Shown: in pieces, positions 39,255 to 64,000 of the stretch
How positions within the stretch are numbered: position 1 is the stretch's first letter
Layout of the letters: the number at the start of each line of letters is the position of its first letter
Source of the DNA: Terriglobia bacterium
Lineage (GTDB): Bacteria; Acidobacteriota; Terriglobia; Terriglobales; Acidobacteriaceae
Reading direction: 5' to 3'
Assembly: GCA_020072845.1 (NCBI GenBank)
Contig: JAIQGF010000018.1
Location: 1 to 64,000 of the forward strand
Length of the DNA stretch: 64,000 nt
Translations under genes and position numbers: made by a program
The notes under the pieces: model-generated
Told to the model about the DNA's origin: nothing
Database searches by the model: none
What the model saw: only the letters and a program-made list of their open reading frames with translations

Positions 39255-39255
39255 A

Positions 39256-42979: not shown

Positions 42980-42999
42980 GATTACGTTATCGTAATGTC
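42980..42999 (-). promoter_or_regulatory. Response-regulator-type operator before the cupin operon
   Basis: Read on the minus strand: ACATTAC-GATAAC-GTAATCT, a perfect ATTAC/GTAAT palindrome with a six-base centre. A TAGGTT -10-like word lies 32 bases downstream. It is the most symmetrical of the six sites in this window. Confidence 0.7.
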
Positions 43000-45551: not shown

Positions 45552-45938
45552 ATGGCAACAAAACACTATCTGAAGGTTGCCGCTGCCCTGGCGCTTGCCC
45601 TGCTATGGTGCGGAGCGGCACCCAGGGCCGGCGCGCAGGTGGAGAAACCAAAGGCTGCTCCTCCACCGCCGGAATGGCAAGGTTCCTTCCACTCCAGTGT
45701 CCAGGTTCCGCCAGCGGAAAACAACCCCGATAAACTCCAGGCTGCGGCCAAGGTCAATGCCGAGGAGATCAAGAATGCCGCGATCAAGGTGCACCCGGGA
45801 TGGAAGATCAGATACATCCAACTCAAGAACGTCAAAGGCAACTTGATCTATGAGGTCGAATTCAAGGACGAGAAAGAGTTCTTCTTCGATGCCGGCACCG
45901 GGGAGCTCATGAATAACCCGGCAAAAAAGAAGAAGTAA
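45552..45938 (+). CDS. Small secreted PepSY-like protein
   Basis: A 128-residue protein. It has a signal peptide (about 28 residues, ending RAGAQ), a Pro-rich linker, then one domain with HPGWKIRYIQLKNVKGNLIYEVEF and a closing FFFDAGTGELM, the beta-alpha-beta pattern of PepSY domains. PepSY proteins often act as inhibitors or partners in the periplasm. AAGGAGAGG precedes the ATG. The gene is first after ECF promoter P2 and lies 188 bases before a TonB receptor, so it may be an accessory of that receptor. The C-terminus is a run of lysines. Confidence 0.82.
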   Translation: MATKHYLKVAAALALALLWCGAAPRAGAQVEKPKAAPPPPEWQGSFHSSVQVPPAENNPDKLQAAAKVNAEEIKNAAIKVHPGWKIRYIQLKNVKGNLIYEVEFKDEKEFFFDAGTGELMNNPAKKKK

Positions 45939-46126
45939 TTCCTCGCTGTCGACCGTGAGGAGTGGCTTACCGCTCGGGCGTATTCGTTGGGCCCTGCCCT
46001 GGCGATACGCGGGTGCATCTCTTCGTCTACTCCAACGGTAACAGCGAGACGGCGATGGATGCTCCGCCGCGGTTAATGTCCGGCGGTTCAGACGAGATCG
46101 CCAGAAAGACTGCGAAGGAGGTCAAC

Positions 46127-48988
46127 ATGCGCATGATTGGCAGGGGCCTGCTGGAGATGGGTCTTACGTCCTTTGTGGTGTTGCTCCTTGCTGTGGCAGT
46201 TGGGGCACAGAACTCTCGGATCGGAGGGGCGATTAACGGGACGGTGAGTGACGTTTCCGGCGCGCGAATCGTCGGCGCCGAGGTCGAGTTGCGAGGGGGT
46301 GACACGAACCAGGTGCGCAACCTGGTAACCAATGAAAAAGGGGTCTTCTTTGCACCCGACCTTCGAATCGGCACCTACGAGGTGCGCTGCACGCATGAAG
46401 GCTTCGCGCCGTACGTGCATGTGGGCGTCGTCCTGGACCTGGGAGCGACGGCTACTCTCGACATCGTTCTCCGACCCGCGTCAGCGATCTCGCAGGTGAC
46501 GGTTTCCGAACAGCCTCCCATGGTCGGCGCTTCGCAGACGTCCGTGTCCTATAACATGGATTATGAGGGTGTGGAAGAGACTCCGTTACGAACGCGCGAC
46601 TACCTGGACTTTACTTTGCTCTCGGCGGGAGTCTCCAGTTCCAATGAGTCGCGCCTCACCGTCGCGCATACGCCGCTTGGCGACAGCGGGTTCACGTTCG
46701 GCGGGTTGCGCGCCCGCAGCAACACGCTTTCCATCGACGGACTCGATAACAATGACGAGTACGCGGGCGCCAGCCGAACCGCGCTTTCGATTGAGGTTGT
46801 TAGTGAGTTCCAGGTGGTCAACAACGGTATGTCGGCCGAGTTTGGCGGGGCAGCGGGCGGCGCCATCAACATCGTCTCCAAGTCCGGCACCAACTTCGTA
46901 CACGGCGACGTTTTCATGTTCGCGCAAAACGGGGTTTTCAACGCGGCGCCATTCGTTGGAAGCATAAAGCCCGATTCAGGCCGATACCGCGGCGGGATGT
47001 CCGTCGGCGGGCCGATCGTGAAGGACCGCACCTTCTTCTCGACTGCGTTCGAGTTGGAGTCGAGCAATATTCAGATGAACAATACCGTCGATCCTACTCT
47101 CGCGGCATCGCTGAACACGTTGCTAAAAACCGGCGCCTTCCCCCGCCTGCCGGTCCGCAACATCAACCCCGGGTACGTGCCGACCAGCGGTGGGGAGACC
47201 GAAGCTTCCGGCAAGGTAGACCACCTGATCAACGCGCACAATTCGCTCTGGTTGCGCTACGCGTTTCGCAACCGGCGCGAGGCGAGCAACAGCTTTAACG
47301 CCGGGGGGTTGGCGGACCCCAGTTCCTGGGGCAGCAGCTTTGTTGCCGATCACGATGTGGCCGGCTCGCTCGTCAGCACGCTGGGGACGCGTTCAGTCAG
47401 CGATCTGCGTTTCCAGTTGTCGACGCGCAGGGCCGTTCTGCGGACCGCCACCGTCACCGGGCCGGAAATCGACCTCGCCGGCCTCGTTCAGTTTGGACGG
47501 ACATACGAAGGCAACGGCGATCGACGCGAAAACCACTATCAAGGAAGTTACTCCTTCAGCACTACGCGCGGGCAGCACCTTCTTAAGGTTGGCGCTACCA
47601 TCAACCGCGTGAGCCTGCAGGCGACGGTGCCGGACGGATTCGGCGGCGTCTACCTGTTCGACACGTTGAACGACTTTTTCGCCGGCCGCCCCGATTCGTT
47701 TCGGCAGGCCTTCGGCAATCCGCGATTCGACATCGCCGTCACCAGCGTCGGAACATTCGTGCAGGACCATTTGGCGTTGAGCCATGGATTCACCGCGGAC
47801 TTTGGCGTTCGTTACGATTTTGAGCACCTACCCCAGTCCTTCAATCAGAGCACGCATAATTTCAGCCCCAGAATCGGCGTGGCTTACAGCCCTGTCCCGC
47901 ACTGGGTCTTCCGCGCCGGATATGGAATCTTTTTCGACCGATACGTGCTGGCCTATCTCGGCCGCGCCATCGACAAAGACGGCCGAACCGCCTATGACCA
48001 GGTGGCGTACGGCAACGTGGCGGCCAACCTCTTTCAAGGTGCGTCAGGCGGGAGCCTGCTAGGCCCGGCGGCGGGAATAGCGCCGTCCATCTTTCGCGCT
48101 GATCCCCACATGCCGACCAGCTACAGCCAGCAGTCGAGTCTCGGCGTCCAACACGAAATCTCAAAGTACGCCTCGGTTGACGCCAACTACCTGTTCATAC
48201 GCGGGGTCAAGCTTTCCCGAACCCGCAACGTCAATCTCTTGCCACCTGTACAACTGACCCTGCTGAACGCGGCGAGTCTTGGCATTCCTAATCCCACTCC
48301 CCAGCAGATCGGCCAACTGGTATTCCCTACCGGCCGGCTCGATCCATCGTTGAACAACATCTATCAACTGGAAGACGCCGCTGGTTCGACGTATCACGGC
48401 CTTACGGTGTCGTTCAATCGGAAGCTTACGGAACTAAACTTCTCTGCCAGCTACACGTTTTCAAAAACGCTCGACGATGCGTCGGATTTCGATGAACAGC
48501 CGCAGAATCCATTCGCGACCCGCGCCGAGAAAGCGCCTTCACGCAACTACCAGGAGCATCGCTTTACATTGAGCGCGCTATGGGAGGCCCCCAGTGAGGC
48601 GAAGGGATGGGTGAAGGTGTTAAAACACGTAGCGGTTGCACCCATCCTTACGATCGGGAGCGGCCGGCCTGTGGATGCACTGACCGGTCTGGATTCCAAC
48701 CGTAGCGGCGCCTGGCCGCTTTCGGCTCGCCCCTTGGGTTTTGCTCGGAATTCTCTATTGACTCCTGCCGTGGCGAACCTCGATTTCCGAATCAAAAGGG
48801 ACATTATGGTCCCGGAGCATGGGCATGTGAGCGTTATGGTGGACTTCTTCAACATGTTGAACCGGAGAAATGTTTATCAACTCAATCCCATCTTCGGCTC
48901 CGGTGCGACTGCACTTGCCGGATTCGGCGGTGCACTCGGACCTCAAAGACCACGGGAAAACCAGTTCGCGGTGGAATGGGAGTTCTGA
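46127..48988 (+). CDS. Oar-type TonB-dependent outer-membrane receptor with carboxypeptidase-regulatory domain
   Basis: A 953-residue receptor with a signal peptide (LLLAVAVGAQ). A beta-sandwich of the carboxypeptidase regulatory type (about 30-120, INGTVSDVSGARIVGAEVELRGG) is followed by a plug (DGLDNNDEYAG, EFQVVNNGMSAEFGGAAGGAINIVSKSG). A 22-strand barrel then runs to a terminal Phe in FAVEWEF. Such Oar-like receptors are highly expanded in acidobacteria and import or bind large substrates. AAGGAGG lies six bases before the ATG at 46127; the frame upstream to 45962 is spacer. It is co-directional with the PepSY-like gene. Confidence 0.93.
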   Translation: MRMIGRGLLEMGLTSFVVLLLAVAVGAQNSRIGGAINGTVSDVSGARIVGAEVELRGGDTNQVRNLVTNEKGVFFAPDLRIGTYEVRCTHEGFAPYVHVGVVLDLGATATLDIVLRPASAISQVTVSEQPPMVGASQTSVSYNMDYEGVEETPLRTRDYLDFTLLSAGVSSSNESRLTVAHTPLGDSGFTFGGLRARSNTLSIDGLDNNDEYAGASRTALSIEVVSEFQVVNNGMSAEFGGAAGGAINIVSKSGTNFVHGDVFMFAQNGVFNAAPFVGSIKPDSGRYRGGMSVGGPIVKDRTFFSTAFELESSNIQMNNTVDPTLAASLNTLLKTGAFPRLPVRNINPGYVPTSGGETEASGKVDHLINAHNSLWLRYAFRNRREASNSFNAGGLADPSSWGSSFVADHDVAGSLVSTLGTRSVSDLRFQLSTRRAVLRTATVTGPEIDLAGLVQFGRTYEGNGDRRENHYQGSYSFSTTRGQHLLKVGATINRVSLQATVPDGFGGVYLFDTLNDFFAGRPDSFRQAFGNPRFDIAVTSVGTFVQDHLALSHGFTADFGVRYDFEHLPQSFNQSTHNFSPRIGVAYSPVPHWVFRAGYGIFFDRYVLAYLGRAIDKDGRTAYDQVAYGNVAANLFQGASGGSLLGPAAGIAPSIFRADPHMPTSYSQQSSLGVQHEISKYASVDANYLFIRGVKLSRTRNVNLLPPVQLTLLNAASLGIPNPTPQQIGQLVFPTGRLDPSLNNIYQLEDAAGSTYHGLTVSFNRKLTELNFSASYTFSKTLDDASDFDEQPQNPFATRAEKAPSRNYQEHRFTLSALWEAPSEAKGWVKVLKHVAVAPILTIGSGRPVDALTGLDSNRSGAWPLSARPLGFARNSLLTPAVANLDFRIKRDIMVPEHGHVSVMVDFFNMLNRRNVYQLNPIFGSGATALAGFGGALGPQRPRENQFAVEWEF

Positions 48989-50677: not shown

Positions 50678-52399
50678 CTAGAAGGTGTAAATAACGTCAA
50701 ACTGCATCCGCTTGCGGTAGTGGTCCAATTGGCCCGGAGCCACTCCCGGTGCAAGTAATCCGGGCTGCAATGCGTCGGTCTTGGCGCTGCCGGGCATTGC
50801 AACCGGGGCAAAGAGGGAGCTGTTGAGAACACGGCCGACATACAGCCTGTAGTTCAGCAAGACCTTGGGCCGCACCACCCACCGCGCATACAACGAGTGC
50901 TCGAGAATGTTTGTCGGAAGGCGCTGGTCGTCTTCCACGAAGGCCGCGAGTGCGGAATCCTGCTCCTGGCGCAAGAACGTGTACCCGATCTGGACATCGT
51001 TCTGGTTCTTCGTCTGGCCGAAGCTTGTCTCCACCTGATAAATATGAGAGTTGTTGCTGGCGGCGCGGATGTTGTCCTCGTATTCCAGCATCACCCGCCA
51101 CGGCCAGCGTTTCAGGCCCGTGTCAATGGTGTTGTCCAGGATCAGGTCGCTATACAAGAACTTCGACAAAAAGGCTCGTGTCACATTGCCGTTGGCGGCG
51201 ACGCTGACCACTTTGTAGGCATTTGTCATCCCGCTGGGGGCGTACGGCACGGTGGCAAATGAGCAGCTAGGGTTGGTGTTGAGCGCCGTTACCGGGTTGC
51301 AGACGATGCTGGTTGTGCCGCTAACCGGTTCTGCGCCGGAATACGCCGGCGCGTTCAGCAGGATGCCCTGGTTGTGCCAATTCAGTGCCATGTAGGAGGG
51401 AGTAATGGTCCAGCGCTTATGCGGCTGCAGCTTGAGCAGCACTTGTCCGCCGGTGGCGTATGAGTCGACCCCGCTAGTGCCGAAGCTGACGGCGGAATTT
51501 TCGTAGAAGAACAACTGGATACCGTTGAAGGTCACGTTCTTTAGGTATTTGTCCTTGAGATCGAAGGAAAACTTTTCACTGAAGCCTTCGGGGCTGATGT
51601 CGTTGTCGAAGGTCTGAGATGTTTTCTGCCAATTGAAGGCGAATTTGCCGCCGGTAAGAGTGAGCCACTTATGGTCCTGGGGATTGTAAGTAAGATACCC
51701 AAGATGCCAGCCCACCGTTTTCCGCTCAAAGAAAGGGGACAGATCGGAGTTGCCACTGGTCGCGTCGGTGAGCTTGCCGGTGGCGATGGATACGCCGGCA
51801 GTGAAATCCTGGCCCAGTTGGCCTTCCATTCCGAAGTGGACGCGGATGCGCTCCCGCACTCGCGGATTCTGGCCGGCAAGGAAGTAGTCCACATTCTGCA
51901 CGCGGAGGTCGCCAAACAGGCGTGCCCTGCCAAGCAGGTTCTGCAGCAAAGCCGCGCGCTTTTGCTCCTCCTTCGCGTTGGCGGTGAGGGCAGTCACATT
52001 ATTTTTGAAGTCGGCGATATCGCCCTGCAGCTTCCTGTAACTTTCCTGCTGCAGGCTCGATGAGGACCGGACTTCCGAGAGCTTGGTCTCCGCCTCCGTG
52101 GCGGTCGCCTCGGTCCTTTGCAGCTGCGATTGGACCTGCTGCCACGCCTGATCGCGCTGCTGAAGTTGCTGTTCGAGGTGTTGAATTCTTTGGTCCTGGG
52201 CGGCTAAGGCGTCCTGGAGAACCTTGAGTTGTTCGGCCGTAATCGTAACCGGCGCGCTTTTCGTTCGTGACGAAGCAGTGGACAAGCGCCGCGCGGGTTT
52301 TTTCGGCGGCGTCGCTTGCGGATCGGCCGGATTCTCAGTCGCAGCCAGGCTGATCGGTAGCAAAAGCAACAGGAGCAGCAGGTGTTTTGCTCGTTTCAT
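50678..52399 (-). CDS. Coiled-coil outer-membrane porin (Porin_5-like)
   Basis: A 573-residue outer-membrane protein. It has a Leu-rich signal peptide (MKRAKHLLLLLLLLPISLAA), a basic Pro/Ser linker and a long coiled coil (about 60-165, QDALAAQDQRIQHLEQQLQQ), possibly anchoring to the cell wall. A barrel with LFGDLRVQNVDYFLAGQNPRVRERIRVHFG follows and ends FDVIYTF. The pattern fits the putative porin family PF16930. GGAGG is five bases before the ATG at 52399. Upstream lie ECF promoter P3 and a response-regulator-type operator, so both systems may control it. Confidence 0.85.
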   Translation of the reverse strand: MKRAKHLLLLLLLLPISLAATENPADPQATPPKKPARRLSTASSRTKSAPVTITAEQLKVLQDALAAQDQRIQHLEQQLQQRDQAWQQVQSQLQRTEATATEAETKLSEVRSSSSLQQESYRKLQGDIADFKNNVTALTANAKEEQKRAALLQNLLGRARLFGDLRVQNVDYFLAGQNPRVRERIRVHFGMEGQLGQDFTAGVSIATGKLTDATSGNSDLSPFFERKTVGWHLGYLTYNPQDHKWLTLTGGKFAFNWQKTSQTFDNDISPEGFSEKFSFDLKDKYLKNVTFNGIQLFFYENSAVSFGTSGVDSYATGGQVLLKLQPHKRWTITPSYMALNWHNQGILLNAPAYSGAEPVSGTTSIVCNPVTALNTNPSCSFATVPYAPSGMTNAYKVVSVAANGNVTRAFLSKFLYSDLILDNTIDTGLKRWPWRVMLEYEDNIRAASNNSHIYQVETSFGQTKNQNDVQIGYTFLRQEQDSALAAFVEDDQRLPTNILEHSLYARWVVRPKVLLNYRLYVGRVLNSSLFAPVAMPGSAKTDALQPGLLAPGVAPGQLDHYRKRMQFDVIYTF

Positions 52400-52533: not shown

Positions 52534-52653
52534 ACGATGTGAAAGTTTCCCGGCGCATACCCATCTCTCGAGCCTGAACATCGGTGAAAATCCGAGATCT
52601 CATTCAGAGTTTCCGTAGCTTACGACACGAACGCGGAAAAGAAGCTTGCGCGT

Positions 52654-52673
52654 GGATTACGATTCTGTCATGT
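52654..52673. promoter_or_regulatory. Response-regulator-type operator between porin and regulator genes
   Basis: Minus-strand reading ACATGAC-AGAATC-GTAATCC. A TAAGCT lies 31 bases away towards the porin and a TACAAT 25 bases away towards the regulator, so it could serve either or both transcripts. The rest of the 52534-52933 gap shows no gene. Confidence 0.6.
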
Positions 52674-52933: not shown

Positions 52934-53608
52934 GTGAGAATCTTGGTAGTAGAGGATGAGAACAAGACGGCCGCTTATGTCCGGAAAGGCCTCACCGAGA
53001 GCGGTTTTGTCGTGGACGTCGCCGAAGACGGCACGGCTGGCCTCGAGTTTGCCCGAGCCAGCGATTACGATCTGATTGTCCTCGACATCATGCTCCCTGG
53101 CAAAGACGGGTGGTCGGTGCTTGCCGAGTTGCGCCGCAGCGGCAAAGAAACTCCCGTCTTGTTCCTGACGGCGCGTGATGCCGTCGAGGACCGAGTCAGA
53201 GGATTGCATGAGGGAGCGGATGATTACCTGGTAAAACCGTTTGCGTTTGCCGAGCTGCTGGAGCGCGTGCGAACCCTGTTGCGCCGCAGTCCCGTCCGTC
53301 AACCCGAAACGCTGCGCATTGGCGATCTCGAAATAGACTCTTCCCGACACCGAGCCACGCGTGCCGGCAAACGTCTCGATCTAACGCCGAAGGAGTTCGC
53401 GCTGTTGTCACTCCTGGCGCGCCGCAAAGGGGAAGTACTGACCCGGACGCTCATTGCCGGGCAAGTTTGGGACATGAATTTCGACAGTCACACCAACGTA
53501 GTCGAGGTGCACATGCGCCGCCTTCGCGCCAAGGTAGACGACCCGTTCGAGAGCAAGTTGATCCGCACCGTGCGAGGCGTAGGGTATGTCCTCGAAGAAG
53601 GTCAGTAG
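52934..53608 (+). CDS. OmpR-family response regulator
   Basis: A 224-residue two-component regulator. The receiver domain (1-120) has acidic Asp8, phospho-acceptor Asp51 ([14 protein letters not shown]), Thr79 and Lys101 (LVKPF). The C-terminal winged helix (130-224) shows [22 protein letters not shown] and [15 protein letters not shown], close to CusR/CopR-type heavy-metal regulators. The GTG at 52934 gives the normal N-terminus; upstream frame would add unrelated residues. Its gene overlaps the kinase gene by 23 bases. It is the obvious candidate to bind the ACATKAC-N6-GTAAT sites. Confidence 0.95.
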
Positions 53609-55112
53609 CCGCTCGTGGTCCCTGGCCACGCGTCTGACCACCTGGTACACGGTGGCTTCCTTGCTTCTCGCCGTGTTCACGATGGGGAGCCTCTACTGGT
53701 GGCTCGCTGCCTACCTCACCCAAAGAGAGGACCGGGTGCTGATCGAAAGGGTCCAGGTCTTGCGAGCCATCTTGCGTGACCGGCCGCAAGCGATCCTCGA
53801 GTTAAGACAAGAAGTGGACTTGAATTCGCCAATCCACCGCCGCGATGATGTACAGGTCTACGTGCGGTTGCTGGACGAACACGGACAGCCAAGCCTGACC
53901 ACGGAGGGAATGGATGCTTTGCTCCCACCTCGGGCTTTCACACTTGTTGTCCCGGTAGACTCCCAGCCCAGCCATGTTACTGACGTCCAGTCACTCGAAG
54001 GCACATCCTATCGAGCGCTCGCGGCACGGGCCTCGGTGGGAGGATCCGGAGAGAAGACCTGGTTAGTGCAAGCGGCCAGGGACAGAGAGCATCACAAGTT
54101 GCTTCTGGCGAACTATCGGCGGGGGCTGCTGATGATGCTGGCGATCACGGTCATCGCTTGCCCTCTGGTCGCATATTTCCTGGCACGACGTGGTCTTCAA
54201 CCGGTGCGCGAGATCAGTGATACGGCGCGACACATCGGGTCCGCGACCCTCTCTGCGCGCATCGAAGCCGCTGGGTATCCTGTCGAGTTGGGCACCCTGG
54301 CCGATACCTTCAATGCCATGCTCGACCGTCTCGAAGATTCCTTCCGCAGGATCTCTCAGTTTTCCGCCGACATCGCGCATGAACTTCGCACGCCCATCCA
54401 CAACCTGCGCGGTGAAGCCGAAGTTACCCTGAGCCGAGCCCGATCGATCGACGAATACAAGGAGGCGTTGACGTCATGTCTTGAAGAGACGGTTCGGCTA
54501 TCAGATCTCATTGGGAGATTGTTGTTTCTGGCCCGAGCCGAAAATCCAGGAACGCAGCTGGAGCGAGAACAAGTAAACCTCACCGAGGAACTTGCCGCCG
54601 TGCGCGAATACTATGCGAATGCCGCCTCCGAAGCGGGAGTTGCGCTTTCCACCGCCGCAGGTGGCGACGTCGTGGTCGCCGTTGACCGGGGCCTCCTACG
54701 AGGGGCGATCGCAAACCTCGTCGCGAATTCCCTCACCCATACCCCGCCCGGCGGCAGCATAACGCTGGCGGCGCAAGTGGACGACGGCCATGCTCGGATC
54801 GAGGTATGCGACACTGGCACCGGCATTCCCACTCAGGATTTGCCGCGAGTGTTTGACCGCTTCTATCGAGCCGACCGGTCTCGTTCCTCGCAGCCTGGTA
54901 ACATGGGTCTGGGGTTGGCAATCGTCAAAGGAATCGTTACGCTCCATGGAGGCCAAACCGCGATCGAGAGTGAAGTGGGCAAGGGCACTAGAGTCACACT
55001 CACATTCCCCATGTCAGCCCGACCTCAGGATCGAGAATCGCGCCGCGCCGGCCCCAGCGACATGATGGATCATGGGCGGGTTGTCCCGATCCCTAACATG
55101 ACGAAAAAGTAA
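53586..55112 (+). CDS. Sensor histidine kinase (CusS-like)
   Basis: A 508-residue membrane kinase. TM1 is about 22-43, then a periplasmic sensor domain (about 45-178) that lacks an obvious Met/His metal cluster, TM2 about 180-200, a HAMP linker, the phospho-acceptor His265 in [17 protein letters not shown], and an ATPase domain with N box ([13 protein letters not shown]), G1 (VCDTGTGIP), F box and [16 protein letters not shown]. It probably phosphorylates the regulator upstream. The last codons (NMTKK, stop) overlap the operator of the first DUF6807 gene, leaving no spare DNA between them. Confidence 0.94.
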
Positions 55113-55152
55113 TGTCGGCGACGGGGTTTTGCAAACCGGTCCGCTGTACAGT
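55096..55152 (+). promoter_or_regulatory. Operator and promoter of DUF6807 gene 1
   Basis: ACATGAC-GAAAAA-GTAATGT (55096-55115), then 31 bases, then TACAGT (55147-55152). The expected start lies about two bases before the ATG at 55161, so the mRNA would be leaderless or nearly so. Confidence 0.75.
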
Positions 55153-55160
55153 TCGTCGTC

Positions 55161-56264
55161 ATGAAAACCAACATCGCAGCAGCTCACCATCCTGTTTCGT
55201 CGTTCAGGTCCATGAGGTCCTGGACAACGCTGCTATTTCTTCTGACGTTCCTTTCAGCTCCGCTGGTCGCGCAGGTGCACTTCGAGCGCAAGCCTGATCG
55301 GGTCGACGTCCAGATCAACGGAAAGCCGTTCACGACCCTTCATTACGGAAAGGACGTGGGCAAGCCATATCTACATCCACTGATCAGTGCCTCGGGAAAG
55401 GCTGTCACGCGTGGATTTCCCCACGATCCGCTACCTGGGGATTCCGTCGACCGTCCCCACCTGCGTGGAGTGATCGTTGGTGTCGAAAAGCTGAGCGCTC
55501 CCTCCGGTGGCGTGCAGGATTTCTGGGAAAACGATCCCGCCCCTTTTTATAGGAAGCGTATCAAGGGCAACATCGTGCTCCAAGAGGTCAACACCGCCGA
55601 TGGCGCCGATCATGGGACGCTCTCGATGGTGGCACACTGGTTCAGCAAGCAGGGACAGTTGTGGATTATCGAGCGGCGAACGATGACTTTCTACACCAAG
55701 CCGGCTGACAGCCGGATGTTCGACATTGACCTCCAATTGGAAGCGGCCAATGAGGACGTTACATTCCTGGATGACAAAGATGCCATCCTGGGGATTCGCC
55801 TGGGCCTGCCCTTCGACACGCACTACGATGGGCGGCTGGTCAACGCGATCGGTGGCATCAACGAGGCAGGCGCTCGCGGACAACGCGCACCGTGGGTCGA
55901 TTGGGTTGGCGATGTGCAAGGCGAGAAGATCGGTGTGGCAGTGTTCGACCATCCTTCCAACCGGAACTACCCCAATCGCTGGCACATCAGGGACTTCGCA
56001 CAGATTAATGTGGGTCCTTTTGGAGGCAAGGTTTTCCAGGAGTACGCCTCCTCGGACAACAAGGTTTATCGGGACGATTGGACATTGACGCTCAAGCGCG
56101 GGGAAAAGCTCAATTTGAAGTACCGAATTCTGATCCATCCGGCAGAGGGGCCGGCAGCCGGTGACCTCCTTTCTGACATGGAGAAGCTGCTGGATCTTAC
56201 CTACCGGCCATTGGTGGACCAGAGGGTGTACGACTGCTTCAACCAGTGGAGAACTCAGAAGTAG
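55161..56264 (+). CDS. Secreted DUF6807 ('PmoA-like') protein, paralog 1
   Basis: A 367-residue exported protein. A signal peptide (LLFLLTFLSAPLVAQ) is followed by a beta-rich domain with VDVQINGKPFTTLHYG, RGFPHDPLPGDSVDRPHLRG and, in the last third, VAVFDHPSNRNYPNRWHIRDF. This is the family filed as PF14100 (DUF6807, historically named after PmoA, although it bears no relation to membrane methane monooxygenase). The function is unknown. Conserved DRPHxRG and HPSNxNYP residues could form a metal or sugar site. It is the first gene after the sensor kinase and has its own operator. Confidence 0.88.
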   Translation: MKTNIAAAHHPVSSFRSMRSWTTLLFLLTFLSAPLVAQVHFERKPDRVDVQINGKPFTTLHYGKDVGKPYLHPLISASGKAVTRGFPHDPLPGDSVDRPHLRGVIVGVEKLSAPSGGVQDFWENDPAPFYRKRIKGNIVLQEVNTADGADHGTLSMVAHWFSKQGQLWIIERRTMTFYTKPADSRMFDIDLQLEAANEDVTFLDDKDAILGIRLGLPFDTHYDGRLVNAIGGINEAGARGQRAPWVDWVGDVQGEKIGVAVFDHPSNRNYPNRWHIRDFAQINVGPFGGKVFQEYASSDNKVYRDDWTLTLKRGEKLNLKYRILIHPAEGPAAGDLLSDMEKLLDLTYRPLVDQRVYDCFNQWRTQK

Positions 56265-56297
56265 GCGAGGGGACGAAGCATTGACCGGGTTGCCCGT

Positions 56298-56655
56298 TTG
56301 CCAGCGCTCCATGTTACTGCTGGGGCGCCGGCTTTTCCGGTTGCGTTGCAGGGCCTGTGGCTGCAGCCGTGCAATGGCTGTGTGCGCGACGTGGACGGTG
56401 TGCGCACTATCGGCTTCCACTATTTCGCCGCCGGGCCCTGTGTCTCGCACGTCTGCATGCACGTGGTGGAATTCGGCACGCCGGTGCGCATGGGCGACTG
56501 GACAGTCAGGGCCCGGCGGTTTGCTCCTCGACGACCAGCACAGCATCCTCCGCACGCCCCGGGAGATCGCGGCCGGCATTTCCGAAGCGGCCCGGCTAGT
56601 GGCCGAAGGGGAGCAGCGCTTCGTGAGCGTGTATTCTCCCGCGGACTTCTGCTGA
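56298..56655 (+). pseudogene. RraA-family remnant (4-hydroxy-4-methyl-2-oxoglutarate aldolase-like), frameshifted
   Basis: One frame reads NGCVRDVDGVRTIGFHYFAAGPCVSH and VVEFGTPVRMGDW. The next continues GPGGLLLDDQHSILRTPREIA and EGEQRFVSVYSPADF. Joined, they match the second half of RraA-like aldolases (RDVDGVR, then PGDLxxxDxHGVxxIP). A one-base shift lies near 56505, and the N-terminal half is absent. It probably belonged with the dehydrogenase that follows in a hydroxyacid or sugar-acid pathway. Confidence 0.65.
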
Positions 56656-56677
56656 GAGAGAGACTGGAGACCTGATC

Positions 56678-57724
56678 ATGCAAGGGACCGCATCGCACGA
56701 TGTTCTACTTCGTTTCTGCAGCGCCTGCTTCGTCAAGTTGGGGATGCCATCCGAGGACGCCGCGTTGACCGCGGACAACCTCGTCTTCGCCAGCTTGCGC
56801 GGCGTCGACTCCCACGGGGTGATGCGCATGAAGATCTACGCGGATCGCATGCGCGCCCGCGGCACTGACCCCCGTGCCCGCCCCCGTGTGCTGAGCGAGA
56901 GCGCTGTCCATGTGCTGCTCGATGGCGGAGATGGCGTGGGCCAGGTAGCCACTGCCGAAGCCATGCGCCGGGTAATCGCCAAGGCGCGCGACTCCGGCTT
57001 GGCCGTGGGCGGCGTGCGCAACAGCAACCACTTTGGCGCCGCCGCCTACTTCGCCATGATGGCCCTTGAACACGGCATGATCGGCCTGACCTTGAGCAAC
57101 GGCACGCCGATCATGGCCCCGAGTGGAGGCCGTCAAGCCCGCGTGGGCAACAATCCGTTCGCCGTCGCCGTGCCCGCCGGCCATCATCCGCCACTCGTGT
57201 TGGACATGGCCACAGGCGCCGTGGCCAAGGGCAAGATCTATGTGGCGCAGCAGGAAGGCAAGAAGATTCCTCTCACCTGGGCGCTCGACGAAAATGGCGT
57301 CCCCACCGACGACCCGGCGGCGGCCGCGCGCGGCCTGATCCAGCCGATGGCCGGGTACAAGGGGTATGGGCTCAGCCTGCTCATGGACATCCTGAGTGGG
57401 GTACTGATGGGCGGCAATTTCGGGATGCTGGTCGGCAAGATGTATGGCGACGTAGGCATTCCGACCGGGACCGCGCACACTTGCGCGGCACTCCGTGTGG
57501 ACCACTTCCTGCCGGAAGCTGAGTTCCGCAGCCACGTGGATGGGCTGATTGACCAGATGCACTCCTGTCCGCGGGTCGCGGGTGTCGAACGAATCTACGT
57601 GCCGGGAGAAATCGAGGTGGAGATAGAAAAAGAACGCCGGGCGCGCGGCATCCCGCTTTCCTCCGCCTTGGCAGAAGAACTGCGCGCTCTGGGCGCGGAT
57701 CTGGGTGTGGAGCCGCCATGTTGA
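56678..57724 (+). CDS. LDH2/malate dehydrogenase family NAD(P)-dependent oxidoreductase
   Basis: A 348-residue member of the LDH2 (malate/L-sulfolactate/ureidoglycolate dehydrogenase) family. It has GVDSHGVMRM (42-51), the catalytic His118 in NSNHFG, NGTPIMAPSGG for the cofactor, and GYKGYGLSLLMDILSG. These soluble enzymes oxidise 2-hydroxyacids. The ATG at 56678 has GGAGA upstream. It lies between an RraA remnant and a small monooxygenase-like gene, suggesting an old sugar-acid or aromatic-acid cassette between the DUF6807 copies. Its exact substrate cannot be told. Confidence 0.9.
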   Translation: MQGTASHDVLLRFCSACFVKLGMPSEDAALTADNLVFASLRGVDSHGVMRMKIYADRMRARGTDPRARPRVLSESAVHVLLDGGDGVGQVATAEAMRRVIAKARDSGLAVGGVRNSNHFGAAAYFAMMALEHGMIGLTLSNGTPIMAPSGGRQARVGNNPFAVAVPAGHHPPLVLDMATGAVAKGKIYVAQQEGKKIPLTWALDENGVPTDDPAAAARGLIQPMAGYKGYGLSLLMDILSGVLMGGNFGMLVGKMYGDVGIPTGTAHTCAALRVDHFLPEAEFRSHVDGLIDQMHSCPRVAGVERIYVPGEIEVEIEKERRARGIPLSSALAEELRALGADLGVEPPC

Positions 57725-57849
57725 GCGCGCGGCGTCTGCACCCGCTCCACAACGTGGATCTCTTGGCCCAGCAGATCTCCGGGAGGACGTGGGCGACACC
57801 GTCGCGCTGATCCCCTCTACCTTGTCGAAGTCAAATAGGAGGCCCCAGC

Positions 57850-58137
57850 ATGATCGTTCTCGTCGTCCATTACACAGTTCGCCCCGGCACTGAGGGCCAA
57901 GCCGTCGGATACATCCGCAAGATGCAGGAGCACACCCGCCGCGAGCCCGGCTGCCGCCTCTATTTCGGGCATCAGGCGACCGAAAACCGGCGGCGCTTCC
58001 TTTTCTACGAACAATACGACAGCCATACTGCTCTTGAAGCCCACCGCACTGCTCCCTACTTCGAGCAGTACATCACCAACGGCCTGGCCAAGCTGGCCGA
58101 GACCATCAACCGCGAGTTGTTCGAGCCTGTCGGATAA
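57850..58137 (+). CDS. Antibiotic biosynthesis monooxygenase (ABM) domain protein
   Basis: A 95-residue single-domain protein of the dimeric alpha/beta-barrel ABM fold (YgiN-like): IVLVVHYTVRPGTEGQAVGYI, EPGCRLYFGHQ, FLFYEQYDSHTALEAHRTAPYFEQY. Relatives are quinol monooxygenases or small oxygen-using enzymes without cofactor; many are only predicted. GGAGG precedes the ATG. It lies downstream of the LDH2-type gene in the same direction. Confidence 0.9.
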   Translation: MIVLVVHYTVRPGTEGQAVGYIRKMQEHTRREPGCRLYFGHQATENRRRFLFYEQYDSHTALEAHRTAPYFEQYITNGLAKLAETINRELFEPVG

Positions 58138-58244
58138 TGCCCGCCGCGGGTGGCAAGGTTTTCTCGATGAAATGCGGCCTCATTGGGGTCGGCATCTTCC
58201 GCTGCTTGAACTCCTAGGTGCGCCGGCTTATTCGGCCGATGCTA

Positions 58245-58301
58245 ACATGACAAAACCGTAACTACAGCGGCGAGATTTTGTAATACGGCTCACGGTACAG
58301 T
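58245..58301 (+). promoter_or_regulatory. Operator and promoter of DUF6807 gene 2
   Basis: ACATGAC-AAAACC-GTAACTA (58245-58264), 31 bases, then TACAGT (58296-58301). The gene starts ten bases after the -10 box. This site is the least symmetrical of the four. Confidence 0.7.
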
Positions 58302-58310
58302 CGGCCAATC

Positions 58311-59372
58311 ATGATGACACCTCAGTGTAGTCAGCCTCGCCGAGCGGATTGGCCTCATCGATCCCACAATGTGTTGAGCTCCCCAAGATCTTGGACGATC
58401 CTGCTACTTTTTCCCATGTTCTTGTCACTCCCCCTTGCCGCACAGGTACGCTTTGCGGTGATGACAGACTCGGTCGCGATCCAGATCAACGGCAAGCCAT
58501 TTAGTGTCCTTCACTTCGGGAAGCAAGAACATAAGCCCTTCCTGCATCCGCTGCTGACCCCCTCGGGGAAGAACATCTTACGTGGATTTCCCGTGAACCC
58601 GCTGCCTGGCGATTCCACGGACCGCCCCCACCAACGCGGAGTGTGGATGGGCACCGAGGGCCTGAAGGGTCCTTCGGGTCTAGAGGACTTTTGGGAAAAC
58701 GATCCTCTCTACCCGCAAGAACACAAGGGAGCCATTGCTTTCCAAGAACTCACCGGCGCGACAGACGGTAATGACCGTGGGGTGCTCTCCTTTGTCTCAC
58801 ACTGGATCAGCAACGAGGGACAGTTGTGGGTTGTTGACCGGCGGAAGATGACGTTTTACAGCAAGCCGGCAGGCTGCCGGATGCTTGACATTGATATCGA
58901 ACTCGAAGCCAGGGAGCCGGTCACGTTTGAAGATGTTCAAGACGGCGTTCTGGGGTTCCGCCTTGCTTTGGCTTTCGATGATCATTATGGCGGACGGGTG
59001 GTGAATGCGGAAGGGGCCGTCAATGAGGAGGGCATTCGCGGCCGCCGTTCGGCGTGGCTCGATTGGACCGCCGAACTGGATCCCAAGGAATACCAGACCT
59101 CGCCACACGGACACGGCGAAAAGATTGGCATCGCGGTGTTCGATCACCCGTCGAATTTGAATTACCCGTCTCGTTGGCAGGTCAAGGACTTCGGAGATTT
59201 CTCGGTGAATCCGTTTGCCGGGCAAATTTTTCAGAAATTCGACAAGACGGCTCAAAAGGCCGCTTACGCAATGAAGCGCGGGGACAAACTCCGTCTGCGC
59301 TACCGGATTCTCATCCATCCAGCAGAACTAAAAGTCGACGGTTTCTTCAAGGAGTGGATAAGCCAGAGATAA
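58311..59372 (+). CDS. Secreted DUF6807 ('PmoA-like') protein, paralog 2
   Basis: A 353-residue paralog of the gene at 55161. The signal peptide (ILLLFPMFLSLPLAAQ) is followed by SVAIQINGKPFSVLHFG, RGFPVNPLPGDSTDRPHQRG, YDVs replaced by FDDHYGGRVVNAEG, and AVFDHPSNLNYPSRWQVKDF. All family-conserved His/Asp positions are kept. It differs from its neighbours in the middle loop (LEDFWENDPLYPQEHK). Two tandem ATGs lie at 58311 and 58314. Its function is unknown; a separate operator indicates individual control. Confidence 0.87.
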   Translation: MMTPQCSQPRRADWPHRSHNVLSSPRSWTILLLFPMFLSLPLAAQVRFAVMTDSVAIQINGKPFSVLHFGKQEHKPFLHPLLTPSGKNILRGFPVNPLPGDSTDRPHQRGVWMGTEGLKGPSGLEDFWENDPLYPQEHKGAIAFQELTGATDGNDRGVLSFVSHWISNEGQLWVVDRRKMTFYSKPAGCRMLDIDIELEAREPVTFEDVQDGVLGFRLALAFDDHYGGRVVNAEGAVNEEGIRGRRSAWLDWTAELDPKEYQTSPHGHGEKIGIAVFDHPSNLNYPSRWQVKDFGDFSVNPFAGQIFQKFDKTAQKAAYAMKRGDKLRLRYRILIHPAELKVDGFFKEWISQR

Positions 59373-59459
59373 CGAGGGTGCGAACCCTCAAGCAGTGCAG
59401 CCCATTGCCGGCGCTCCTTGGATTGCTACGCCGGTGGCCGTTTTGCGGTCGATCCCCGA

Positions 59460-59516
59460 ACATGACGAAAAAGTAATTTCAGCGCCGTGGTTTTGTTAGG
59501 CGGTCCGCTGTACAGT
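59460..59516 (+). promoter_or_regulatory. Operator and promoter of DUF6807 gene 3
   Basis: ACATGAC-GAAAAA-GTAATTT (59460-59479), 31 bases, then TACAGT (59511-59516). It is nearly identical to the site before gene 1 over 60 bases. Confidence 0.75.
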
Positions 59517-59524
59517 CGGCGATC

Positions 59525-60583
59525 ATGATGACACGTCAGTGTAGTCAACCTCGCCGAGCGGATTGTCCGCGTCGGTCCTGCAATTTGTTGAACTCCCCAA
59601 TGTTTTTGACAATCCTGATACTTCTTCCCATGTTTTTCTCGCTCCCCCTTGCCGCACAGGTGCGCTTTAAGGTGGGGACGGATTCGGTCGCGATCCAGGT
59701 CGCCGGCAAGCCGTTTAGCATGCTGCATTTCGGGAAGGAAGCGCGCAAGCCCTACCTGCATCCGCTGCTCACCGTCTCGGGTGGGCCCGACCCGGTGACG
59801 CGCGGATTTCCGGTCGACCCTTTGCCTGGAGATTCCACCGACCACCCCAACCACCGCGGACTGTATATCGGCGCAGAGGAGGTGAACGGCGAGGATTTTC
59901 TCGACAACGAGCCCGGTAATACGGAGCCGCCGCCCAAGGGCAACATCGAATTTGAGAAGCTCACCCAGGTCACCGATGGCGATGAGCGCGGGACACTTTC
60001 CCTGCTGGCGCATTGGATCAGCCACGAGGGAAAAGTGTGGCTCATTGAGCGGCGGACAATGATTTTTTACGGCAAGCCTGCCAACGTGCGCATGTTCGAT
60101 ATCGACACCGAACTCGAAGCCGCCGAGCCGGTCACGATCACCGATCACCAAAGCGCCATCATTGGATTGCGCCTTGGCTTGGGCTTCGATACTCACTATG
60201 ACGGTTTTGTCGTCAACGCGGCCGGGGGCAAAAACGAGGAAGGCGTTCGCGGACGCCGCTCACCGTGGCTGGTATGGATCGGCACTACGAGTGGCGAAGG
60301 GCGGGTCGGCGTCGCCATGTTCGACCATCCGGCGAACCTGAATTACCCGTGTCGCTGGCAGGTTCGGGATAAGGGGCTCCTCATGGCGAATCCGTTCGGG
60401 GGGAAAATTTTTGCCAAGTTCGATCCGACGGCTGCGAATGAGAACGCCGAGTTCAAAATGAAGCGCGGGGACAAGCTCCGCCTGCGCTACCGAGTTCTGA
60501 TCTACAACGCGGGGAAAAATGAAGCCGTGGGGGCAATTGTTGCCAGAATGAACGCAGCGCAAAAAGAGTTTGCAAGGCAATGA
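59525..60583 (+). CDS. Secreted DUF6807 ('PmoA-like') protein, paralog 3
   Basis: A 352-residue protein most like paralog 2 at its N-terminus (MMTRQCSQPRRAD versus MMTPQCSQPRRAD), pointing to a recent duplication. A signal peptide (LPMFFSLPLAAQ) precedes VAIQVAGKPFSMLHFG, GFPVDPLPGDSTDHPNHRG, GFDTHYDGFVVNAAGG and AMFDHPANLNYPCRWQVRD. The loop after the first motif is short compared with paralogs 1 and 2. The function is unknown; all predicted key residues are present. Confidence 0.87.
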   Translation: MMTRQCSQPRRADCPRRSCNLLNSPMFLTILILLPMFFSLPLAAQVRFKVGTDSVAIQVAGKPFSMLHFGKEARKPYLHPLLTVSGGPDPVTRGFPVDPLPGDSTDHPNHRGLYIGAEEVNGEDFLDNEPGNTEPPPKGNIEFEKLTQVTDGDERGTLSLLAHWISHEGKVWLIERRTMIFYGKPANVRMFDIDTELEAAEPVTITDHQSAIIGLRLGLGFDTHYDGFVVNAAGGKNEEGVRGRRSPWLVWIGTTSGEGRVGVAMFDHPANLNYPCRWQVRDKGLLMANPFGGKIFAKFDPTAANENAEFKMKRGDKLRLRYRVLIYNAGKNEAVGAIVARMNAAQKEFARQ

Positions 60584-60785
60584 CTCAGTTCCAGCGAATT
60601 CTCGCCAGGGACGCCCCCGCATCAGCGCGGAGCCAACCTCAAGTGTTTTTTTGTACTCATCCCGTGACCGACCCAGGTGCACAGGCCGCAGGTTCGCGCG
60701 GCTTTGAATGCGCAGTGCGGTTAGCGCCAGAGGAGCCATTTTTCCGAGCACGGGCAGCGGACGGACATCCTGGCATGGAAGTTCA

Positions 60786-60842
60786 ATATGACAAAAATGT
60801 AATCTCAGCGTCGCAGCTTTTTCACCCGATTGCGTGCACAAT
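60786..60842 (+). promoter_or_regulatory. Operator and promoter of DUF6807 gene 4
   Basis: ATATGAC-AAAAAT-GTAATCT (60786-60805), 31 bases, then CACAAT (60837-60842). The spacing matches genes 1-3, though the -10 word differs. The rest of the 60584-60862 gap shows no gene I can support. Confidence 0.7.
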
Positions 60843-60862: not shown

Positions 60863-61918
60863 ATGAAAATGTTCCATGCTAAGCACTGTGTTTCCCAGTG
60901 CTCATCGCGGCCGGCCGCAACGCGGTCAGCGGTGTTGCTTTTTCTCGCGTTCCTCTCGCTATGTTTATGGGGTTCTCCGATTGCCGCACAGGTGCACTTC
61001 GACGTGCGCTACGACTCGGTGGTGATCCAGATCAACGGCAAGCCTTTCAGCGTTCTGTATTACGGGAAGGAAGCGCGCAAGCCATTCCTGCATCCGCTGC
61101 TGACAGCATCGGGCAACGCGGTCACGCGCGGATTTCCGGTCGACCCGTTACCTGGCGAATCCACCGACCGGCCCAACCACCGCGGACTGACGATCGGCAC
61201 GGCCCGCGTTCAGGGACCGGAAACTGGACTGAATGCGGGACTGTTCTTCTGGGGGCAGAATTTTGTCGACAACGACCCCAGCAATATGGGTCCGGATCGG
61301 GGCACCATCGCGTTCAAAGAGCTTACCGGCGTGGTAAACGGCGAGGATCGTGGTGTGCTCTCGATGGTCTCGCACTGGATCAGCCACCAGGGACAGTTGT
61401 GGCTGATCGAGCGCCGCAAAATGACGTTCTACAGTAAGCCCGCAGACTGCCGGGTGTTCGATATTGATCTCGAACTCGAAGCCGCCCAGCAGCTTACTTT
61501 CAGCGACTATCAAGACTCCATGCTTGCACTGCGCCTCGGTCTGCCCTTCGACTCTCACTATGGCGGGAAGATCGTCAACGCAAGCGGTGGCGTCAACGAG
61601 GAAGGCGTTCGCGGACGCCGCTCACCATGGATTGACTGGACCACGGAGTTGAACAGCGGCGAGAAGGTCGGCGTCGCGATATTCGACCATCCTGCAAACC
61701 TGAATTACCCGGCACGCTGGCAGTATCGAGACAAGGGCATCGTCGGGGTTGGTCCCTTCGCGGGGCGATGCTTCGCGAAGTTCGATCCGACGGCTGCAAC
61801 CGAAAACGCCGAATACACAATGAAGCGCGGGGACAAACTCCATCTACGTTACCGGATCGTGATACATCCGGCAGGGCTAAAGCTCGACAACTTCCTGAAG
61901 GAGTTTACAAGCCCATGA
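60863..61918 (+). CDS. Secreted DUF6807 ('PmoA-like') protein, paralog 4, coupled to a TonB receptor
   Basis: A 351-residue paralog. A signal peptide (AVLLFLAFLSLCLWGSPIAAQ) precedes VVIQINGKPFSVLYYG, GFPVDPLPGESTDRPNHRG, PFDSHYGGKIVNASGG and AIFDHPANLNYPARWQYRD. The ATG at 60863 has a partial GGAGA; an upstream TTG would cut into the promoter. Its stop codon overlaps the start of the TonB receptor (ATGA), so the pair is translationally coupled. This is the strongest hint that DUF6807 proteins here cooperate with outer-membrane uptake. Confidence 0.88.
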   Translation: MKMFHAKHCVSQCSSRPAATRSAVLLFLAFLSLCLWGSPIAAQVHFDVRYDSVVIQINGKPFSVLYYGKEARKPFLHPLLTASGNAVTRGFPVDPLPGESTDRPNHRGLTIGTARVQGPETGLNAGLFFWGQNFVDNDPSNMGPDRGTIAFKELTGVVNGEDRGVLSMVSHWISHQGQLWLIERRKMTFYSKPADCRVFDIDLELEAAQQLTFSDYQDSMLALRLGLPFDSHYGGKIVNASGGVNEEGVRGRRSPWIDWTTELNSGEKVGVAIFDHPANLNYPARWQYRDKGIVGVGPFAGRCFAKFDPTAATENAEYTMKRGDKLHLRYRIVIHPAGLKLDNFLKEFTSP

Positions 61919-64000
61919 AATCGTTCACGCGAATGCTAGCTGGATTGTTGCCGATGCTCGCCCTCCTGGCGGCGCCGGCTTTTGCGGCCGACTTGCACGG
62001 CATTGTGGCCGCATCCATAGATCGGACGCCAATCTTTGAAGCCCACGTGGTGCTGCACGGGCCCCACGGTTTGCAACTGACCACAATGACCAACACCGAA
62101 GGCGCTTATAGTTTTACGGGACTGGATGCATCTCTGCGCTATTCGGTGGACGTGGAGGCGAAGGGATTCAATCCTTTCACGCAAGACATCACGATGTCTT
62201 CCGATTCCCAGCAACTCGATATACTCCTCGATTTGGTAACCCACCATGAATCGGTGGTGGTAAAGGCTTCAGGAGAGGTGATCAGCCTGGAAAGCAGTGC
62301 GCCGGATGTCAGCCAAATCATCACCACGGCGCAGGTGGCAGCCCTCCCCTCGGCCAACCGGAACGTGACGAAATATGCGCTCCTGGACCCGCACGTGCGC
62401 CCGACGCAGGGGTCGGCCAGCGACGGCAACAACGGCAACCGGCTCTCCTTCAACGGAGAGTCGCATCGCTACACCGGCTACATCCTCGACGGCGTGATCA
62501 ATTACGACTGGACCTACTCCAACGGGCCCTACCAATTGGTCGCTGCCAGCGCCGCGTCGGATGTAAAAGTGATCACCAATGAGTACGCCGCCGAGTACGG
62601 GACTTCCACCACTGGAGTTGTGAAGGTGGAAACGAAAGCCGGAACCAGCCAACTGGCCGGCGAAGCGTTCGTCTACCTGATCCCGAGTGGTATTCAGGCC
62701 AATGCGCCGGTCGCCACTTTCCATGTCCCGAATGAGCGAGAGCAGTGGGGAGTGCTTCTGGGCGGCCCACTGGTGAAGGACAAGACTTTTTTCTTTGCCG
62801 ACTATGAAGGTGTCGATCAGCACCGGGGATCGTTCATCCAGTCGCCCACTCCCATGGTCTACGTCGGCGAAGGCCATGAAGCTTATGGACTCGCGCGGAT
62901 TGACCACAACCTCACCGACAGTCACGCGCTGGCGCTCCGGCTGAACATCTATCATTACGCCAATACGAACCCGAACGATCGGGTTGGCGGATTCAATCAA
63001 ATCAGCTTCGGCCGCATGGAGCGCAGCCAGTCTACGGGCGGGCAAGTGAGCGACCGGCTGGTGATCGGACGCAACCTGGTGAATTACTTCCGCGTCAACT
63101 ACAATTCGTACTCGCCGGACAACAATGCTCCCACCGGGCCTTATTCTTACGGGGTGGGGATCAGTCGCGCCTCTTACAGCATCTCGGGGTTTTCCCAGAA
63201 CAACTGGGATCGCTCGCGGCTTCTTGATGTGAGCGATAATGTGGCCTGGAATCATGGACGGCACAATTTCAAGTTTGGCGCTGAATTTGTGCGGGTCAAG
63301 GTCACCGATTTTCTGACCAACCTGTACGGAACCTATACCTTTAACGCCGGCCCGCCTGTGGTCGGCGAGCATCCGGCAAGCTTTCAACAGATTTTCGGGA
63401 CGGCGTTCCTCCGTTTCGGCGACACCATCTGGCAGGCATACTTCCAGGACGACTTCAAAATATCATCGCGTCTCTCCGCCAATGTCGGCCTGCGCTATGA
63501 GTACCAAGCCACCACCGACTCGGTGCACAGGTTGGGTCCGCGCGTTGGCTTGGCTTGGGACGTCAGGGGAAACGGTAAAACCCGAGTTACGTTCGGATCT
63601 GGGATCTTCTATGCCGCAGACACTTACAATGAGCTCCGGCGAGCCCTCCGTTCCAACGAGAAAGGCCCCCTCTTTACGTACACGATTCCCTGGGGAACTC
63701 CAGGATTTCCCACGTTTCCGAACTCGCTCACCGAGCCTCCCACCTCAGTCCAGGCGGCAAGGGCAGACATCGTAGTGCGACCCCCTAATTATCTGAATCC
63801 TTACAGCATGCAAGCCTCTGTCGGTGTTGAACGAGACCTCGGAGCTAAATTCGTGCTGTTGGCGAATGGCATTTGGTCCCATACGGTGCACCAACTCCGC
63901 GATTATGATCTCAACCATCCGGCGCCCTTCATCCGAACCGCTCCCGGTCAGACGCGATCCGCAACCGCAGCCGACGCGACGCGCCCGTACACTACGTACA
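61915..64000 (+). CDS. Oar-type TonB-dependent receptor, partial (3' end outside window)
   Basis: At least 695 residues are present. A signal peptide (LLPMLALLAAPAFA) is followed by a carboxypeptidase-regulatory beta-sandwich (GIVAASIDRTPIFEAHVVLHG, then TNTEGAYSFTGLDASLRYSV) and a plug (FNGESHRYTGYILDGVINYDWTY, then VITNEYAAEYGTSTTGVVKVETKAGT). The first part of the barrel ends the window (DKTFFFADYEG; FKFGAEFVRVKVTDF). The ATG overlaps the stop of DUF6807 gene 4; GAAGGAG is 12 bases upstream. It is not closely similar to the receptor at 46127. Its ligand is unknown; the operon suggests the DUF6807 partner handles it in the periplasm. Confidence 0.92.
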   Translation, partial: MKSFTRMLAGLLPMLALLAAPAFAADLHGIVAASIDRTPIFEAHVVLHGPHGLQLTTMTNTEGAYSFTGLDASLRYSVDVEAKGFNPFTQDITMSSDSQQLDILLDLVTHHESVVVKASGEVISLESSAPDVSQIITTAQVAALPSANRNVTKYALLDPHVRPTQGSASDGNNGNRLSFNGESHRYTGYILDGVINYDWTYSNGPYQLVAASAASDVKVITNEYAAEYGTSTTGVVKVETKAGTSQLAGEAFVYLIPSGIQANAPVATFHVPNEREQWGVLLGGPLVKDKTFFFADYEGVDQHRGSFIQSPTPMVYVGEGHEAYGLARIDHNLTDSHALALRLNIYHYANTNPNDRVGGFNQISFGRMERSQSTGGQVSDRLVIGRNLVNYFRVNYNSYSPDNNAPTGPYSYGVGISRASYSISGFSQNNWDRSRLLDVSDNVAWNHGRHNFKFGAEFVRVKVTDFLTNLYGTYTFNAGPPVVGEHPASFQQIFGTAFLRFGDTIWQAYFQDDFKISSRLSANVGLRYEYQATTDSVHRLGPRVGLAWDVRGNGKTRVTFGSGIFYAADTYNELRRALRSNEKGPLFTYTIPWGTPGFPTFPNSLTEPPTSVQAARADIVVRPPNYLNPYSMQASVGVERDLGAKFVLLANGIWSHTVHQLRDYDLNHPAPFIRTAPGQTRSATAADATRPYTTY

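Follow-up and report, generated by a model that had tools for sequence, protein, structure and literature searches.

What governs the four DUF6807 genes that follow a two-component system in a Terriglobia bacterium, and what is the element repeated in front of each of them? We addressed this in a 64,000-nt stretch of one contig (hereafter, the window) of a genome of 4,230,756 bases (4.23 Mb) in 27 contigs; in the window, the two-component pair occupies 52.9-55.1 kb and the four DUF6807 genes 55.2-61.9 kb. Judging from the sequence, the repeated element is in all likelihood an activator-dependent promoter of the adjacent CusR/CopR/AgrR-type two-component system. Promoter and regulator belong to types already known, and it is the set of genes under their putative control that is new and carries signs of rewiring.

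A preliminary description of this locus had placed the site AYATGAC-N6-GTAA in front of all four genes, with a -10 box at a fixed distance. We found the site without mismatch at 55096, 58245, 59460 and 60786, and the hexamers TACAGT, TACAGT, TACAGT and CACAAT do follow at one constant distance; this distance, however, is 34 bases counted from GTAA to the hexamer, and not 31. The promoters of genes 1 to 4 span 55096..55152 (box ACATGACGAAAAAGTAA), 58245..58301 (ACATGACAAAACCGTAA), 59460..59516 (ACATGACGAAAAAGTAA) and 60786..60842 (ATATGACAAAAATGTAA), all on the forward strand. The genes had also been credited with almost no leader. Assuming a start 7 nt beyond the hexamer, which is a geometric guess, the predicted leaders of genes 1-3 are 2, 3 and 2 nt (their ATGs being unproven), as had been said, but that of gene 4 is 14 nt, and there GGAGA precedes the ATG by inspection. 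A sigma-70 scan of 55000-62000 detected no -10/-35 pair at the four DUF6807 promoters, and one elsewhere (2.1 expected). The operator of gene 1 (55096-55112) includes the 3' end of the kinase gene, whose last codons (N M T K K stop) read AACATGACGAAAAAGTAA.

The array, previously described in front of the four paralogs, extends beyond them, as seven promoters share site and spacing. In the window, the exact motif is also found at 45264(+) and 52657(-), and copies with one mismatch at 42982(-) and 6070(-), giving eight matches with at most one mismatch, versus a mean of 0.40 and a maximum of 2 in 100 shuffled windows. The match at 6070(-) has no -10-like hexamer 34 bases downstream (+34); the other three belong to promoters with the same 34-nt spacer. 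The fifth promoter (45264..45320, +; ACATGACGGAAACGTAA, TACCCT) lies ahead of a PepSY gene and an Oar-like receptor, the sixth (42942..42998, -; ACATTACGATAACGTAA, TAGGTT) precedes cupin, propeller and RND efflux genes, and the seventh (52617..52673, -; ACATGACAGAATCGTAA, TAAGCT) lies in the gap between the regulator and a Porin_5 gene, its putative target. A hexamer of the form [TC]A...T occurs at +34 in all four DUF6807 promoters and in all three others, and is rare at the remaining offsets within 15-60 (mean 0.11 for the DUF6807 four and 0.02 for the other three).

Promoters so similar could simply have been copied, if the four genes had recently duplicated together with their upstream DNA. 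The genes are indeed paralogous (protein identity with gene 4 of 52-63%), and from the ATG onwards 100 of 120 bases agree between genes 2 and 3. Yet between paralogs the 57-bp promoters have 34-49 identical bases, whereas the upstream flanks have only 13-18 of 60 and fourfold-degenerate codon positions are 43-62% identical. Since the promoters are more alike than both flanks and fourfold sites, purifying selection on the promoter, and not recent copying, is indicated, as had been argued from their precise conservation between unevenly diverged neighbours. Moreover, the same layout is seen at three unrelated genes of the window, among relatives in other families and in Escherichia coli, and we regard recent duplication as a highly improbable explanation. 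The codon differences between genes 2 and 3 in codons 1-30 (58311-58400 and 59525-59614) are synonymous in four cases and non-synonymous in nine; as most are of the latter kind, the stretch past the ATG may be leader, and the true starts may lie further downstream.

The obvious candidate for the binding protein is encoded next to the sites. The response regulator (52934..53608, +; identified also by Pfam; CusR/CopR/CzcR/SilR subfamily; GTG start from sequence reading, with 52937-53605 used in searches) scores 342.1 bits against TIGR01387, the model of heavy-metal response regulators (cut-off 279.2), and the sensor histidine kinase (53586..55112, +; HAMP, HisKA and HATPase_c domains) 381.6 bits against TIGR01386, that of heavy-metal sensor kinases (cut-off 292.55). 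Both fall short of the narrower models: the regulator reaches 287.5 bits for the E. coli copper/silver regulator (cut-off 420) and 289.5 for HprR (cut-off 353), and the kinase 257.6 for the CusS-type subfamily model NF007345 (cut-off 423). Among 61 genomes, matches to the kinase at E 1e-90 were confined to this genome and two others (48-50% identity; one with an internal stop). Alternatively, the sites could belong to another OmpR-family regulator of this genome, with the neighbouring pair incidental. Excerpts of PMC11195947 report that CusR, CopR and CzcR can bind one site in Pseudomonas, and the same is described for E. coli HprR and CusR in parts of PMC8249747 and PMC9302797; the genome also encodes six further full-length matches to TIGR01387, at 144-188 bits. 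None of these six passes the cut-off, however, which among the 58 matches in the genome is exceeded by the adjacent regulator alone, and the sites cluster around the adjacent pair, while in other genomes they lie near a relative of this same regulator. We therefore consider another regulator improbable. The adjacent CusR/CopR-type regulator, which the preliminary description had proposed, is very probably the binder, given that it is the sole protein to pass TIGR01387, that the operator is found beside many relatives with 65-70% identity and that box and spacing recur at cusC and hiuH. The 52656 box, when read towards the regulator gene (52656-52704), is followed by 28 bases, and not 34, and then TACAAT; this is possibly an autoregulated promoter of different spacing.

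Relatives of the regulator allowed us to examine the operator outside this genome. A search of 100 genomes retrieved, besides this genome, four with such a regulator at E 1e-85, and one of 399 genomes of the class (seven candidates scored per genome) retrieved 17 besides this one at E 1e-84 with 65-70% identity, one of which was already among the former. We scanned 20 regulator neighbourhoods, totaling 323,780 bases, from the same family, order and class; counts over 19 loci omit L155, which has the same sites as L154. The loose box gave 49 matches in the 20 neighbourhoods, both orientations counted, versus 4 for the reversed pattern. The strict box is present in 13 of 19 neighbourhoods at 20 places, that is, in 39 oriented matches (orientation unselected). 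Downstream of these, GT[AC] is found at +11 in 13/39 and at +22 in 10/39, with all other offsets between 5 and 30 below 4, and [TC]A...T is most frequent at +34 (8/39; next +9 with 6, and a mean of 1.0 over offsets 5-65). The full layout in the relatives reads TGAC-N6-GTAA-N7-GTCA-N7-GTC-...-TAnnnT, with four half-sites in steps of 10, 11 and 11 bp. The 34-base "spacer" would then correspond to two further half-sites at 11-bp steps, clear in the relatives and decayed here: in the seven window promoters the third half-site keeps its G in 7/7 and its T in 1/7, and the fourth its G in 5/7 and its T in 6/7. In one relative locus (L044), the box lies 13 nt past the kinase stop. Second, more palindromic boxes of the form ATTACN6GTAAT, with no hexamer at +34, are present at L044:13017, L045:10647 and L151:4169; they lie close to a gene for a TonB receptor or to that for the regulator, or past the end of the phosphoesterase-type gene.

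We then scored the window with a 57-column matrix built from 13 relative sites only, which were chosen and oriented by hand, favouring the extended motif. Ranks 1-7 in the window are exactly the seven sites: 42996(-) with 35.4, 45266 with 34.8, 52671(-) with 32.1, 59462 with 23.7, 60788 with 18.0, 55098 with 10.8 and 58247 with 6.1, the next place scoring 4.4. The three non-DUF6807 promoters thus come closest to the form of the relatives, and the DUF6807 promoters look derived.

Genome-wide, the pattern ATGACN6GTAA has 15 matches, six of them here. The form ATKACN6GTMAT, which corresponds to the outer consensus of the AgrR box as published, is found at 15 places, versus one for the reversed pattern, and six of the 15 fall within 17.8 kb of this contig (42,981-60,803; binomial P 2.7e-11, for a clustering spotted after the fact). 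These are six of the seven window sites; the box at 58247 escapes the count because it ends in GTAAC. A [TC]A...T hexamer at +34 accompanies 6/6 clustered sites and, on either strand, 0/9 elsewhere. Across 38 genomes, a strict extended pattern was found in 5 of the 19 with the regulator or a relative and in 1 of the 19 without one at E 1e-85; its reversed control gave 0, and the pattern is so strict that these counts say little.

Several observations weigh against a promoter class recognized by the adjacent regulator. ATGACN6GTAA is only about twice as frequent in the genome as its reversed control (15 versus 7), and the full 16-bp AgrR consensus ATKACANNNNTGTMAT is matched by a single window box of seven (60788), that at 58247 deviating even from the outer consensus. 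The third half-site is barely discernible in the four DUF6807 promoters. When spacer and -10 alone are scored with the relatives' matrix, three DUF6807 promoters have poor rank fractions (0.042, 0.077 and 0.122), the gene 3 promoter reaching 0.0023. Outside the window, 6 of 19 regulator neighbourhoods, some of them short contigs, have no strict box; [TC]A...T at +34 is present in 8 of the 13 relative sites and absent in 5; the strict extended pattern is missing from 14 of 19 genomes with the regulator or a relative; and genome G010, which has no regulator relative at E 1e-85, matches it.

The sites, their spacing, the half-site periodicity of the relatives, the regulator family, the conservation across genera and the match to E. 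coli would be consistent with the following mechanism, in which binding, activation, start sites and operon extents are predicted. The phosphorylated regulator would bind the inverted half-site pair TGAC-N6-GTAA; where a site is at full strength, it would in addition contact one or two more half-sites (GTCA, GTC), which fill the "spacer" at 11-bp steps. This arrangement would place all half-sites on the same side of the helix, the midpoint of the inverted pair being near -53.5 (taking the start 7 nt after the -10 hexamer). As the promoters have a -10 and no recognisable -35, polymerase would need the bound regulator, and this would explain the rigid 34-base distance. The seven promoters would form a local regulon comprising the secreted DUF6807 proteins, outer-membrane receptors, porins and a cupin/propeller/RND-efflux run.

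The DUF6807 genes lie, all on the forward strand, at 55161..56264 (gene 1), 58311..59372 (gene 2), 59525..60583 (gene 3) and 60863..61918 (gene 4). All four pass the PF14100 gathering cut-off of 27, with 194.8, 191.8, 195 and 198.4 bits, respectively, and are exactly the DUF6807 matches of this genome. In 99 other genomes searched the best match had 39% identity, and in three genomes of the same genus there was no match at E 1e-20. The top relatives are mostly labelled Acidobacteria, the highest-scoring one (L048) Verrucomicrobia. We scanned 1,115,661 bases of loci, comprising DUF6807 relatives, the best 80 of 339 from another search and four regulator neighbourhoods, where ATGACN6GT[AC]A has 17 matches versus 5 for the reversed pattern. 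A 4-kb contig of the Terriglobia metagenome-assembled genome SRVP_41 (L049:2024) carries the gene 1 promoter letter for letter, probably from the same or a very near species. L049 aside, no operator with this layout was found in the scanned loci at other DUF6807 genes, and TAnnnT at +34 is confined to one site, in L044, which adjoins a relative of the regulator (L040 is the same site, cut short). The operator thus appears to travel with the regulator and not with DUF6807.

For gene 4, an N-terminal helix and a galactose-mutarotase-like beta-sandwich are predicted. Its sequence has no match among solved structures up to E 1. A structure model from 20 sequences (pLDDT 85.1, pTM 0.83) has VIA fold matches to rhamnogalacturonan lyase, galactose mutarotase and other sugar-enzyme sandwiches (Z 15-18 and identity 4-15% among the matches listed), and Foldseek returned the same kind of folds with low TM-scores (0.27-0.40 among the matches listed). 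A shared fold shows no activity, and a role of DUF6807 in sugar handling at the envelope is a fair guess only. Excerpts of PMC10971088 and PMC5342196 give no function for DUF6807/PF14100.

The other presumptive targets are as follows. The ATG of a TonB-dependent-receptor-like gene (61915..64000, +, continuing past the window end; family by inspection) overlaps the stop of DUF6807 gene 4 by 4 nt. Behind the fifth promoter are genes for a small secreted PepSY protein (45552..45938, +; PF03413 30.9 bits, cut-off 24) and for an Oar-like outer-membrane receptor (open reading frame [ORF] 45962..48988, +, its true start probably internal; family by inspection). The sixth faces genes for a secreted cupin (42377..42868, -; PF07883 38.5 bits, cut-off 27.2) and a beta-propeller protein (41147..42145, -; YNCE 30.3 bits, cut-off 27.1); the genes for an outer-membrane factor, adaptor and RND efflux pump (35105..40674, -; OEP 112.3 and ACR_tran 789.4 bits) possibly continue its operon. 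The adaptor scores 28.3 bits against TIGR01730 (cut-off 94.9). The Porin_5 gene of the seventh promoter extends over 50678..52399 (-; start 52399), with 54.5 bits for PF16930 on ORF 50678-52471. Between DUF6807 genes 1 and 2, the segment 56500-58000 carries Ldh_2 dehydrogenase and ABM monooxygenase genes as if inserted; its G+C content is 64-66%, that of the adjoining 500-base blocks 59 and 55%, and it holds no box match with up to one mismatch to AYATGAC-N6-GTAA.

To what signal would such a regulon respond? A true copper or silver response, with the DUF6807 proteins serving metal handling, would agree with the heavy-metal family membership of regulator and kinase, and with an RND pump in the likely sixth operon that comes close to the CusA/CzcA model (TIGR00914, heavy-metal RND pumps). 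That pump, however, stays narrowly below the cut-off (692.1 versus 701.45 bits), and the DUF6807 fold is predicted to be sugar-enzyme-like. A metal signal is not supported by the kinase, because it lacks the metal ligands of CusS, which we take to be H42 and F43 (Y and L stand there in an alignment of four kinases that is loose in the sensor domain), as well as, in the same alignment, the Met/His-rich stretch of CusS. Furthermore, HprR of E. coli, which belongs to this family, responds to peroxide or hypochlorite according to portions of PMC8249747 and PMC9302797. Overall, we consider a metal response unlikely.

Twelve of the 13 relative sites are followed by a gene for a long secreted phosphoesterase-type protein (N-termini inspected), and the thirteenth precedes a TPR/sulfotransferase gene. 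Two of the phosphoesterase-type proteins were checked by Pfam and matched PF04185 with 38.6 and 35.1 bits (cut-off 23), besides weak propeller matches. A search with one relative protein found no full-length gene of this type in the present genome, only a 74-residue match, and for this reason the target set appears rewired. We tentatively propose, as a possibility rather than the expected outcome, that a heavy-metal-family regulator now serves an envelope programme related to carbohydrates, having lost an ancestral phosphoesterase target and gained four DUF6807 genes, receptors and porins, with every new target acquiring the operator and a -10 at the E. coli distance. If true, this would be a regulon rewired under a frozen promoter geometry, a case of regulator targets seemingly changed while the promoter layout stayed, and the first regulatory context for DUF6807. 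For a family of unknown function, a link with a regulator and with genes of outer-membrane uptake would make signal and role testable.

The fixed geometry extends beyond this locus and is shared with other members of the regulator family. Among the literature matches listed, no title concerned an acidobacterial CusR-type regulon with TonB-dependent targets, and "copper box" combined with CusR, cusC and two-component gave no match. The operators of the regulator's relatives have the same box, the same 11-bp half-site steps and the same most frequent -10 distance, and differ in that 12 of 13 precede the phosphoesterase-type gene. Pseudomonas CusR/CopR/CzcR sites are similar in their GTAAT half-site and in a regulator gene adjoining its targets, which in contrast to those here are copper and zinc resistance genes (excerpts of PMC11195947). 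The AgrR box of Cupriavidus metallidurans resembles the window sites in being an inverted repeat, ATKACANNNNTGTMAT, with an in-phase direct repeat and a poor -35, activating from just upstream (PMC7380067, in part). The inner A and T of this box are mostly missing in the window boxes, and its centre lies at about -43.5 in its own promoter and somewhat more upstream in the others (same excerpts), whereas here it is predicted at about -53.5, as computed from the hexamer with the start assumed 7 nt past the -10. A further correspondence is with the CusR/HprR promoters of E. coli K-12. Upstream of cusC, ATGACAATTTTGTCAT is followed by 34 bases (from the end of GTCA) and TAAAGT, and upstream of hiuH, ATTACAAAATTGTAAT by 34 bases and TATCCT; the cusR-cusC box is printed in the excerpted part of PMC11195947, and the hiuH box is the CusR/HprR box according to that of PMC9302797. 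Both have GTCA/GTAA 11 bp past the second half-site. They share with the window the TKAC-N6-GTMA box, a third half-site at +11 bp and 34 bases to TAnnnT, although E. coli has this middle half-site intact and the window promoters have it in decayed form. The targets differ too, being an efflux pump and the hiuH-msrPQ operon in E. coli and, presumptively, DUF6807 proteins, receptors, porins and a cupin run in the window. A simple rule (box, 34 bases, TAnnnT, half-sites every 11 bp) applies both to E. coli and to a distant bacterial group, and lends itself to searching genomes that lack annotation for probable direct targets of this regulator family.

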